This document shows positions 6,569 through 16,778 of a stretch of 36,409 nt of DNA, one piece after another. The notes beneath the pieces are model-generated. The model saw only the letters and a program-made list of their open reading frames with translations. It did not search any database and was not told where the DNA came from. Origin of the DNA: Gammaproteobacteria bacterium (lineage in GTDB: Bacteria; Pseudomonadota; Gammaproteobacteria; Pseudomonadales; Halieaceae); the NCBI GenBank assembly GCA_003646405.1, contig QNFR01000016.1, forward strand, positions 1-36,409, written 5' to 3'. Position 1 is the first letter of the stretch, and each line of letters starts with the position of its first letter. The translations under genes were made by a program, and so were the position numbers.

Positions 6569-6662
6569 GAATTATTTCTCTGGGGAAATGTGGAATGTTA
6601 GCGACTGCCTGATGACGGGGCAATGCGTCACAGCACAAAAACTTGCCGCCTGTAACGACATG

Positions 6663-6691
6663 TACACAAATGGTACGCGTACAATTATACT
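6663..6691 (+). promoter_or_regulatory. Promoter with embedded palindrome upstream of the WYL regulator
   Basis: A -10 box TATACT (6686-6691) sits 17 bases after the -35-like TACACA (6663-6668). The spacer contains the perfect 10-base palindrome GTACGCGTAC (6673-6682), and TGTAC at 6661-6665 gives a further half-site. A repressor bound there would block RNA polymerase, which fits autorepression as known for BrxR/CapW proteins. The link to this regulator is inference. Confidence 0.55.
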
Positions 6692-6723
6692 GGATCGGCA
6701 AATCGGCCTCACAGGAACGAACT

Positions 6724-7599
6724 ATGGCTCTCCGTACGAACAAGAAATGGCCCTTTCGCTGGGAGCTTCTTTTACGCTATCGCTTTATCGAAACAATCGC
6801 CCTGTGGGAGGGCCGCCTGACAACCCGACACCTGTGCGACACCTTCGGTATCGGCCGGCAGCAGGCCAGCAAGGATATCAACAACTACATTCGCGAGGTC
6901 GGGCCGGGCAACCTGGAATACGACAAATTCCTGAAGGGTTACAAACCGACTGACGATTTCCAGCCACAGGTAACCCAGGGCCTGGCTGACGAGTACCTGC
7001 ACCTGATGGCGCGCAATAACGAACTGATGCACGTGTTTGAGTCGCTGTCACTCAATATGGCCAATATTGAAGTGCTCTCAGTGCCGGTACGCGACGTAAA
7101 ACCCGAGGTGTTACGCCCCATCATGCAGGCGGCTCGCCAGCAAAAGCGCCTGGATGTGGACTACGTCTCCATCAATAATCCAGATCGTGAAGGGCGCATC
7201 ATCGTGCCCCACACCCTGGTCTACACCGGTCTGCGCTGGCATGTGCGCGCATGGTGCGAAAAGAACCAGGAATACCGCGACTTTGTGTTGAGCCGGTTTC
7301 GGGACATCCCGGAAATCATGGATGATTCCGTGCACGGGATAAGGGGTGATACACAGTGGAATACCACGATCACCATTCGCATCACCCCCGACCCACGTTT
7401 AAATCCCGATCAGCGGGAGGTCGTGGAAGTTGACTACGGCATGGACAATGGCGCACTGAAAGTAACTACCCGCGCTAAGTTGGTACCCTATGCCTTGAAA
7501 TTGCTACATGTAGATCCCAGTGAAGAATTAGAAGATCCTATGGCGCAACAAATCATTGTTGAAAACCGGGATGAGTTGAGTCCCTGGCTATTCGGGTAA
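6724..7599 (+). CDS. WYL-domain transcriptional regulator, CapW/BrxR type
   Basis: A 291-residue DNA-binding protein with three parts. An N-terminal winged helix-turn-helix (about 15-75) includes WELLLRYRFIETIALWEGRL and FGIGRQQASKDINNY. A central WYL domain (about 125-210) carries PHTLVYTGLRWHVRAWCE and DFVLSRF, where WHV replaces the literal WYL. A C-terminal WCX-like domain follows. This arrangement matches CapW/BrxR, dimeric repressors often found by phage-defence systems that may sense nucleic acid or nucleotide ligands. The ATG at 6724 follows AGGAA and is preferred over an in-frame ATG at 6643, which would place the promoter inside the gene. The DUF1232 gene begins only 7 bases after its stop, so the two are probably co-transcribed. 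No BREX, CBASS or restriction genes are seen. Confidence 0.88.
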   Translation: MALRTNKKWPFRWELLLRYRFIETIALWEGRLTTRHLCDTFGIGRQQASKDINNYIREVGPGNLEYDKFLKGYKPTDDFQPQVTQGLADEYLHLMARNNELMHVFESLSLNMANIEVLSVPVRDVKPEVLRPIMQAARQQKRLDVDYVSINNPDREGRIIVPHTLVYTGLRWHVRAWCEKNQEYRDFVLSRFRDIPEIMDDSVHGIRGDTQWNTTITIRITPDPRLNPDQREVVEVDYGMDNGALKVTTRAKLVPYALKLLHVDPSEELEDPMAQQIIVENRDELSPWLFG

Positions 7600-7606
7600 A
7601 TACATT

Positions 7607-8038
7607 ATGGCAGACCACAACGAATTTGAAGACGCATTTTCAGAGCAGGGCTTCTGGACCAAGCTGAAGCACTACGCTAAATCCGCCGGCATGGAAGTGG
7701 TGGAGAAAGCCTTGTTGCTCTATTACGCCGCACAGGAGGAGAAAGCGCCCGCCTGGGCCAAGGCGACCATCGCAGCTGCCCTGGGTTACTTCATTGTACC
7801 CCTGGATGCCATAGCCGACCTGACACCCGCGGTCGGCTATGCTGACGACCTCGGCGTACTGGTGCTGGCTATCGCCGCGGTGGCCACCTACATCAACGAC
7901 GATGTACGAAAAAAATCCGCGGCTAAAATCAAAGACTGGTTTGGAGAAGATAGCCCCGCGCTAGACACCGCCACGTCTATAAAATCACCGGCAGTACAGG
8001 CCCCTGACGCTTCAACCGGTGCAAATTATAGGCCATAG
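7607..8038 (+). CDS. DUF1232 (YkvA-like) membrane protein
   Basis: A 143-residue protein with the DUF1232 core at about 45-95: AKATIAAALGYFIVPLDAIADLTP followed by GYADDLGVLVLAIAAVATYI. The P-x-D-x-I-x-D-x-x-P and DD signatures are typical. Two short hydrophobic helices suggest membrane association. The N-terminus (FWTKLKHYAKSAGMEVVEKALLLYYAAQ) is a helical extension, and the last 35 residues are low complexity. Family function is unknown. The gene starts 7 bases after the WYL regulator stop, without an obvious strong ribosome binding site, suggesting translational coupling. Confidence 0.85.
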   Translation: MADHNEFEDAFSEQGFWTKLKHYAKSAGMEVVEKALLLYYAAQEEKAPAWAKATIAAALGYFIVPLDAIADLTPAVGYADDLGVLVLAIAAVATYINDDVRKKSAAKIKDWFGEDSPALDTATSIKSPAVQAPDASTGANYRP

Positions 8039-14234: not shown

Positions 14235-14369
14235 CCCCGATTATCATTGCACCTTGTCGTGACCGCAAGTTTGTGCATCCCTTTATCAAACTGTTGATCT
14301 GCCATATGATCATCCACCACTCACTAGTCTATGCTTGAGTGGGCAGGCCTACAGATGAGAATACGCGAT

Positions 14370-16778
14370 ATGACAGATCAATGCCCTGAACTCAAACCAG
14401 CACAGCGCCATAGCGCGCTACCTGTGGCACGTCTTTATAGCCACTGCGACCCGGCGGAACTACCCTTTCACAGCACAGATGAACTGGAGCCCCTGGGTGA
14501 ACACCTGGGACAGGATCGCGCTGTAGAGGCGCTGCAGTTCGGCCTGCAAATACCTCACGATGGCTACAACATTTTCATGCTTGGCAGTACCGGGGTGGGC
14601 AAAAGGGAGCTGCTGGCCAAGCTGCTGAACAAGGAATCCGCGGTGCCACAGGGCGAAGTGTCCGACTGGTGTTACGTGAACAATTTCAAGTCACCGGACA
14701 AGCCCGTTGCCCTGCGACTACCCAGAGGCATGGGTCGCCAATTGCGCGATGATATGACGCAAACGCTGGAAGACCTGCTGGGTATAATGCCCGCCACTTT
14801 CCAGAGTGACGAATACCAGGCCAGGGTGCAGGAATTGGCCGAACAATACCAAAGCAGGGAAAAAGAAGCGTTTAGCGTACTGGCGGAAAAAGCCAAAGAG
14901 AAGCAGATCGCCATGATCCAGACCCCCAGCGGCTACACCCTGGCGCCCGTGAAAGACGGGGAAATCATCAAACCCCAGGATTTCGAGGCACTGCCAGAGA
15001 AACAGAGATTACAATCCATGGAAGTTATAGAGGGCCTCAAGGAGGAACTGAAGGTGATCGTACGCCAGCTTCCAAGCTGGAAGAAAGAGAGCCGTGACCT
15101 GTTCAAAGAGTTAAACAAGGAATTCAGCCAACTGGCAATCGACCCGGTAATGAACGAGCTGAAAGAAAAGTACAAGAACTACCCCGATGTACTGGTGCAC
15201 CTGGACGCGGTGCACAGCAGCGTGATGGATGAGGCGGAGGCTTTCACCCAGGTACCGGAGGAATCCGCTATCCCGGATAACCTGAAGCAGAGAGTGCGGG
15301 AGTTCCCTCAATACAGCGTCAACGTATTGGTAGATAATCAGGACTTGCCCGCCGCCCCGGTCATCCATGAGGACAATCCCGGCTTTGCGAACCTGATCGG
15401 CCGCGTGGAATATGTATCGCAAATGGGGACCCTGACCACCGACTTTACCCTGATAAAACCCGGCGCCCTGCACCGCGCCAACAGTGGCTACCTGATACTG
15501 GAAGCCGACAAAGTGCTTACCAGCCCCTACGCATGGATGACCCTCAAGCGCGCCCTGAAGGCACAGGAAATCCGCATCCAATCCCTGGAACAGATCTTCA
15601 GTTTCATGAGTACTGTACAGCTACAGCCAGAGCCCATACCCCTGAATGTGAAAGTCGTCCTTGCCGGCGACCGCTACATCTACTACATACTGCAACAGTA
15701 CGACCCGGAGTTTTCGACCCTGTTCAAAGTGGCCGCGGATATGTCGGAAGATGTCTCACGCTCGCCTGAGAGTTCCGCTCTGTTCGCCCGTATGATAAAA
15801 ACCCTGCAGGATCGCGATAAGTTACTGCCGCTGGACAGCGGCGCCGTGGCCAGGGTTATCGAATACGCCGCCAGGCGCATGGAAGACAGTGAAAAACTCA
15901 GCCTGCACCAGGGTCGACTGAGTAATCTGTTGACTGAAAGCGACTTCCGCGCACGTCAGGCCGGCGCCGACATAATCGATGCGGACCATGTAAACGGCGC
16001 AGCCGAGGCCGCTACGCACCGCATGGACCAATTCCGGGAAAAGTCCCACGAGGGCATATTGCGCGACATCATGCTGGTGGATACCGCCGGTTCTGCGGTG
16101 GGTCAGATTAATGGCCTGGCGGTCTACCTGCTCGGTGACTACGCCTTTGGCAAACCCTCGCGCATTACGGCTACCGCCCGGCTGGGGCCCGGTAAAGTGC
16201 TGGATATAGAGCGCGAGGTGGATCTGGGCGGTAAAATTCACTCCAAGGCGGTGATGATCATAAGCGCCCTGCTGGCCAACCGCTACGCTCGCAGCCAACC
16301 CCTGCCCCTGTCCGCCAGCCTGGTGTTTGAGCAATCCTACGGGGGTATAGAGGGGGACAGCGCCTCGGTGGCGGAATTGGTGGCGTTGATATCCGCCATC
16401 GCCGGGATTCCGATACGGCAGGACCTGGCCGTGACTGGCTCACTGAACCAACACGGGCAGGTACAGGCCATCGGTGGCGTCAATGAAAAAATCGAGGGGT
16501 TTTTCGATATCTGCTTTTCACGCGGCCTCAGTGGCACTCAAGGTGTGGTGATACCACAGGCTAACGAGGTGCATTTGATGCTGCGCCAGGATGTGCTGGA
16601 CGCGGTCGCAGCAAGCCAGTTCCATATTTACTGCGCGGACAGCATCGACCGGGCCCTGGAACTGCTCACCGGATACAGCGCCGCTTCCATTGACAACTGT
16701 GTTCTGGCCCGGGTAGAGGAACTCCAAAAACTGGCCAAGGAGTATAACAACAAGGGGGATGACAAGGACGATGACTGA
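14370..16778 (+). CDS. Lon-like ATP-dependent protease (AsrA/LonB-like, S16)
   Basis: An 802-residue protein. The N-terminus has the family block LEPLGEHLGQDRAVEALQFGL and a P-loop GSTGVGKR (72-79). The last position is Arg where Ser/Thr is usual, so nucleotide handling may differ from classical Lon. A coiled-coil region lies at about 150-290. The C-terminal S16 domain keeps the Ser-Lys dyad: S664 in EGDSAS and K707 in NEKIEG, 43 residues apart as in E. coli Lon. The layout matches AsrA of Pseudomonas, a protease linked to aminoglycoside and heat stress. In-frame ATGs at 14331 and 14355 are alternatives; 14370 is chosen because relatives begin shortly before the conserved block. Its end overlaps the next gene by 8 bases. 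Confidence 0.9.
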   Translation: MTDQCPELKPAQRHSALPVARLYSHCDPAELPFHSTDELEPLGEHLGQDRAVEALQFGLQIPHDGYNIFMLGSTGVGKRELLAKLLNKESAVPQGEVSDWCYVNNFKSPDKPVALRLPRGMGRQLRDDMTQTLEDLLGIMPATFQSDEYQARVQELAEQYQSREKEAFSVLAEKAKEKQIAMIQTPSGYTLAPVKDGEIIKPQDFEALPEKQRLQSMEVIEGLKEELKVIVRQLPSWKKESRDLFKELNKEFSQLAIDPVMNELKEKYKNYPDVLVHLDAVHSSVMDEAEAFTQVPEESAIPDNLKQRVREFPQYSVNVLVDNQDLPAAPVIHEDNPGFANLIGRVEYVSQMGTLTTDFTLIKPGALHRANSGYLILEADKVLTSPYAWMTLKRALKAQEIRIQSLEQIFSFMSTVQLQPEPIPLNVKVVLAGDRYIYYILQQYDPEFSTLFKVAADMSEDVSRSPESSALFARMIKTLQDRDKLLPLDSGAVARVIEYAARRMEDSEKLSLHQGRLSNLLTESDFRARQAGADIIDADHVNGAAEAATHRMDQFREKSHEGILRDIMLVDTAGSAVGQINGLAVYLLGDYAFGKPSRITATARLGPGKVLDIEREVDLGGKIHSKAVMIISALLANRYARSQPLPLSASLVFEQSYGGIEGDSASVAELVALISAIAGIPIRQDLAVTGSLNQHGQVQAIGGVNEKIEGFFDICFSRGLSGTQGVVIPQANEVHLMLRQDVLDAVAASQFHIYCADSIDRALELLTGYSAASIDNCVLARVEELQKLAKEYNNKGDDKDDD

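Follow-up and report, generated by a model that had tools for sequence, protein, structure and literature searches.

The window, by which we mean the whole 36,409-nucleotide stretch of DNA analysed here (contig C16 of a 2.9 Mb draft genome), carries a regulator whose family is known but whose setting is new: it appears to be a core gene, it lies away from defence genes and it has a clade-specific partner. BrxR/CapW regulators have so far been described mainly as controllers of phage defence. Our preferred reading, to which we give a probability of about 0.5, is that the gene encodes an autoregulated core repressor of the BrxR family and that the DUF1232 gene behind it is a clade-specific addition, co-transcribed with the regulator. 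The argument turns on the following features.

6657-6681, no strand assigned: operator-like 25-bp imperfect inverted repeat, GACATGTACA-CAAAT-GGTACGCGTA, with a GTA-N9-TAC skeleton; left arm conserved, right arm degenerate.
6663-6668, + strand: weak -35-like hexamer TACACA within the operator-like element; its distance to the -10 is preserved in relatives.
6673-6682, no strand assigned: palindrome GTACGCGTAC, exact, overlapping the right arm of the operator-like element; not conserved.
6686-6691, + strand: -10-like hexamer TATACT, recurring in relatives.
6724-7599, + strand: BrxR/CapW-family wHTH-WYL regulator, ATG start, 291 aa, PF13280.
7607-8038, + strand: DUF1232 (YkvA-type) small protein, probably membrane-associated, 143 aa, PF06803.

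The two genes are separated by 7 bp (ATACATT). Around them lie genes for an M28 peptidase, an acyl-CoA dehydrogenase, SPFH and NfeD, with a polyphosphate kinase farther off. A LonB/LonC-type AAA protease at 14331-16778 gave weak PADLOC matches to BrxL and mad8; it is most likely an ordinary Lon-like protease.

Judged from its alignments, which cover almost all of the protein, the regulator is a genuine relative of BrxR and CapW, and on this point the sequence-only reading was right. Its match to the Pfam profile PF13280 (E 9e-15) is the sole one in the source genome, where the gene is single copy. The best match to a solved structure was BrxR 7t8k (E 1.2e-59, regulator residues 12-290 aligned), and the CapW PDB chains matched nearly full length with E about 1e-38 to 1e-40. 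Of the eight pocket residues that the excerpted text of PMC9122588 gives for CapW, seven are present when residues are mapped from CapW through the structure-match alignment: Y147, S149, R171, H173, R185, F187 and R191. This WYL pocket (Y, S, R, H, R, F, R, with His replacing Tyr) is conserved across the family: among the family rows with an aligned residue (93-94 of 104), its residues are invariant apart from single-row exceptions at S149 and R171. The remaining rows are probably truncated translations. The equivalent of CapW W156 is R158, an Arg in 93/93 aligned family rows. As for the three DNA-contact positions tested in CapW (S/Q/S), S42 is replaced by G44 (Gly in 92/92 rows), Q47 is Gln in 92/92, and S49 is Ser in 77 and Asn in 15 of the 92.

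At E<=1e-20, the regulator was matched in 116 of 140 genomes of its family, which the titles of related records give as the Halieaceae, including 73 of the 78 of high quality. Once three remote paralogues (G041, G138 and G139; 32-34% identity) and one fragment (G008) are dropped, it is present in about 112 of the 140, with identities of at least 49%. In a tree, 102 of the 105 family rows stood apart from the order-level rows (support 97, by a quick method); the three exceptional rows, all of genus g2, clustered with the latter. The regulator is apparently inherited vertically throughout the family. All together, its family-wide presence, the tree, the housekeeping neighbours and the lack of any other convincing PADLOC match among the 24 window proteins scanned make it look like a near-universal core chromosomal gene of the Halieaceae.

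The sequence-only reading had also pointed to a perfect palindrome in the promoter, GTACGCGTAC. The palindrome is indeed there, exact at 6673-6682 between the -35 TACACA and the -10 TATACT. However, the window contains 44 perfect 10-bp palindromes, so that GTACGCGTAC taken alone is no more than chance would give; the scanned region held one promoter-like site, against 1.5 expected by chance. Among 133 loci, GTACGCGTAC was found only in the window's own copies, and it is absent from the same-genus relative, a sister species (L003). We put GTACGCGTAC down to chance. What holds is an operator-like element at the promoter: the overlapping 25-bp element at 6657-6681 is conserved.

This better element, GACATGTA-N9-TACATATA, spans the -35 box and is overlapped by GTACGCGTAC at its degenerate right arm. 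BrxR/CapW regulators are expected to have an imperfect palindrome, some 20-25 bp long, at their own promoter; the window copy has one, with a poor right arm (6 of 12 half positions self-complementary). The upstream regions of the nearest relatives keep CGACATGTACAC, followed by 17-18 bases and then TATACT. Of 143 homologues, 19 have the GTA-N9-TAC skeleton in their upstream region (13 of 103 in the family, 6 of 40 at order level), compared with a mean of 3.8 and a maximum of 12 over 200 shuffles of the upstream sequences. Other spacings from 3 to 21 occurred in 1-8 regions each, except N3 with 12, an excess due to a repeated motif in genus g9 and its kin. With the longer TGTA-N9-TACA, 20 of 110 upstream regions score 7 or 8 of 8, as against about 3.5% of shuffles. 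The ACAT ahead of GTA, which is outside the selected core, is kept in 15-17 of 17 sites per position; this 17-site table omits L070 and L108, chance-like by position or by letters, at least two of the 19 being of that kind. The element was seen upstream of homologues as low as 47% identity, and near-perfect copies lie outside the family, before L164, L179, L180, L184 and L190. Many family members are without such an element. In g21, a large genus, the regulator sits close behind another gene and probably lacks its own promoter. Because the element precedes homologues both with and without DUF1232, it appears to belong to the regulator and, as far as the sequences tell, is probably older than the pairing. 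At one further locus (L269, G315 C29:9468), a second operator-like copy lies about 1.4 kb upstream of the WYL gene; the genes that follow this copy are presumably a toxin-antitoxin pair (RHH and ParE-like).

The source genome yielded no clear distant regulon. The half-site CGACATGTAC was searched in ten genomes: it had 13 sites in the source genome (G000) against 4 for the reversed control, and no overall excess over the control in the others. Ten of the 12 non-WYL sites in G000 fall within ORFs, one lies in an intergenic repeat and one precedes a trpE-like gene; with no excess elsewhere and most sites inside ORFs, we rejected them as evidence of a regulon. The half-site of the last case (L236, G000 C66:1297) lies 162 bp upstream of a gene that we take to be trpE. 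The repeat (L238, G000 C93, 708-805) is made of intergenic direct and inverted repeats, GTACGGTA(C/A)GTCGC and related units, and mimics the operator half-site. A strict full-operator pattern returned 9 distinct places in 245 genomes (11 rows, against 7 for the reversed control); five of these places precede WYL homologues, from whose promoters the pattern had itself been derived. A relaxed 31-bp pattern (<=3 mismatches) returned 30 distinct places in the 245 genomes (32 rows; control 17), 13 of them before WYL homologues; about seven of the 13 had not been used in writing the pattern, though they had been seen earlier. In G225, which also carries a 59% WYL homologue, the only strict match (L248, C15, near 1501-1523) lies about 80 bp before genes that we take to be sbcD and then sbcC. 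The sbcD of G225 is a possible DNA-repair target. As a conserved target it was rejected: the G225 SbcD was matched in 8 of 140 family genomes, and the full element was seen by eye in 0 of the 8 upstream regions.

The partner's assignment to DUF1232 held up, with a PF06803 match of 42.8 bits (E 4e-11; gathering cut-off 23) that covers all 37 profile positions and is the only one in the source genome. Residues P65, D67, D71, P74, G77, D80 and D81 are invariant in 13 aligned sequences. The predicted structure is all helical, at low confidence (pLDDT 64.8, pTM 0.52), and the protein is probably membrane-associated. In the open-licence literature, we found neither a functional study of DUF1232/YkvA nor a paper on the WYL-DUF1232 pair; in one paper that mentions YkvA, the name is a bare gene label.

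Orthologues of the DUF1232 protein (query P0002, E<=1e-20) were found in 42 of the 140 family genomes, or 45 at 1e-5. The gene follows the regulator on the same strand at 4-97 bp in 26 of the 140, mostly at 4-18 bp, and at 451-520 bp in three more (G009, G044 and G051). Thirteen of the 42 are located elsewhere, a count that includes G119, whose placement is obscured by a contig end; in G036, G133 and G135, the gene sits about 3.7 kb downstream of the regulator. Spurious ORFs overlapping the WYL gene came up with an iterated DUF1232 profile, and only matches confirmed by tblastn and coordinates were counted. With such overlapping ORFs set aside, DUF1232 lies beside the regulator in 0 of 40 order-level loci. 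Both genes are present in 40 of the 140 genomes, the regulator only in 72, DUF1232 only in two (G138 and G139) and neither in 26. On the tree, adjacency is confined to one group of 51 rows and needs at least 5 or 6 label changes, several close relatives having DUF1232 lost or separated from the regulator. The ORF clusters that flank paired loci differ between genomes (approximately, as neighbour ORFs were picked by greedy length and not by a gene caller), and the pair thus outlasts its surroundings. The pairs are therefore not random, and the coupling that the sequence-only reading had drawn from the 7-bp gap stands to that extent; however, it is limited to a clade and is not obligate. A direct toxin-antitoxin reading of the pair was rejected, as each gene also occurs alone. 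Most likely, DUF1232 is a later addition to the regulator, co-transcribed with it.

Could the regulator be a core gene that controls itself or distant genes, with DUF1232 a neighbour by descent and no functional link between the two? The many genomes with the regulator and no DUF1232, the two with the reverse, the 13 orthologues located elsewhere and the operator-like elements in front of homologues without DUF1232, within and outside the family, would all fit such a passenger. Yet the pair persists, mostly with gaps of 4-18 bp, while the flanking clusters change, and the source genome offers no clear distant regulon to control, 10 of its 12 other CGACATGTAC sites being in ORFs. We hold this alternative to be possible, if somewhat doubtful. 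Markedly less probable is a minimal phage-defence or abortive-infection unit in which the regulator represses a membrane-harming DUF1232 effector until infection lifts the repression. It draws on the family's known role: 164 of 347 BrxR/CapW homologues have a known defence system downstream, and about half do not, according to the excerpted text of PMC9122601. Order-level homologues at 48-54% identity do precede defence genes, namely Cas3 (L192, L193 and L195) and Wadjet JetA (L173), while L165 precedes a weak JetD match and L184 a DUF429 protein matching a phage-defence-candidate model in PADLOC; the 10 downstream proteins scanned were picked from the 40 order-level loci where an ORF on the same strand lay close behind, and are not a random sample. 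The link to defence is thus real in the wider group, but it is not seen at the window locus. Here, in line with what had been remarked from the sequence, no convincing defence gene was found: among the 24 window proteins scanned with PADLOC, none besides the WYL protein gave a convincing match, and the DUF1232 protein (P0002) gave none at E<=1. Moreover, the regulator is distributed as a core gene across the family, some 72 genomes have it without DUF1232, and G138 and G139 have DUF1232 orthologues without a regulator orthologue. The first proposal for this locus, a minimal unit of phage defence with the membrane protein as its effector, is not supported.

Two other downstream associations were observed. 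Genes resembling DUF429 are found repeatedly behind WYL, on its strand, at L081, L086-L089, L091, L094, L097 and L098 (genera g4 and g21) and at the order-level L184; the source genome has no DUF429 match. In several genomes of the order-level family f18 (L185 and relatives), a large Exo_endo_phos protein is encoded immediately after the WYL homologue.

We return to the autoregulated core repressor with its added partner. The sequences themselves show the family membership, the conserved pocket, the conservation of the operator-like element and the clade-limited pairing; beyond that, we infer the following course. A dimer of the regulator would bind the 25-bp element at 6657-6681, covering the -35 box, and hold down its own promoter. 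Once a ligand occupied the WYL pocket (the most plausible candidate being a piece of nucleic acid, on the model of PafBC and DriD, which bind ssDNA), the regulator would release the operator and the promoter would fire. In the one clade where DUF1232 is lodged 4-97 bp downstream, and is probably co-transcribed with the regulator, the small, probably membrane-associated protein would rise along with it. A wider version, which we consider unlikely, would make the regulator a Halieaceae-wide core stress sensor of the nucleic-acid fragments produced by damage or infection, driving itself and clade-specific partners (DUF1232 in one branch) and so linking genome damage to the envelope. If this were true, the defence islands found elsewhere would use a sensor that also exists as a housekeeping one. 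The locus matters in practical terms as well. A whole family with a core chromosomal BrxR-type gene, and with a readable operator common to distant relatives, is a clean setting for finding the ligand, with no toxic defence system attached, and the pair gives a first point of entry to what a DUF1232 protein does.

BrxR and CapW are described, in the excerpted texts of PMC9122601, PMC9122588 and PMC9122589, as repressors that, as dimers, bind to imperfect palindromes in their own promoters. Our regulator resembles BrxR of Acinetobacter NEB394 (7t8k/7t8l; PMC9122589, as excerpted) by its near full-length homology. The two proteins share the RQQ of the DNA-reading motif, the first motif residue being S in BrxR and G here. 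The Acinetobacter operator, ATACCGTAAAAATAATTTACTGTAT, overlaps the -35 box and has in common with the window element this overlap, the GTA-N9-TAC skeleton and the 10-5-10 geometry; the letters otherwise differ, and overall identity (9-10 of 25) does not exceed that of shuffled sequence (mean 7.4, maximum 14). No BREX genes were found near the regulator here, which looks like a core chromosomal gene. With CapW of CBASS (7tb6, 7tb5, 9c5g; PMC9122588, as excerpted), the wHTH-WYL layout and seven of eight pocket residues are common, but CapW R32 and W156 are T34 and R158 here, CapW sites overlap the -10 whereas the window element overlaps the -35 and the spacer, and no CBASS genes were found at the window locus. 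The match of PafC to the regulator is weak (E 0.052) and confined to the WYL part, and DriD and PafBC are reported, in the excerpted literature, as activators, unlike the repressor proposed here. Nevertheless, these are WYL regulators of chromosomal DNA-damage responses that bind ssDNA in the WYL domain, which makes nucleic-acid sensing a plausible ligand mode for the regulator described here.
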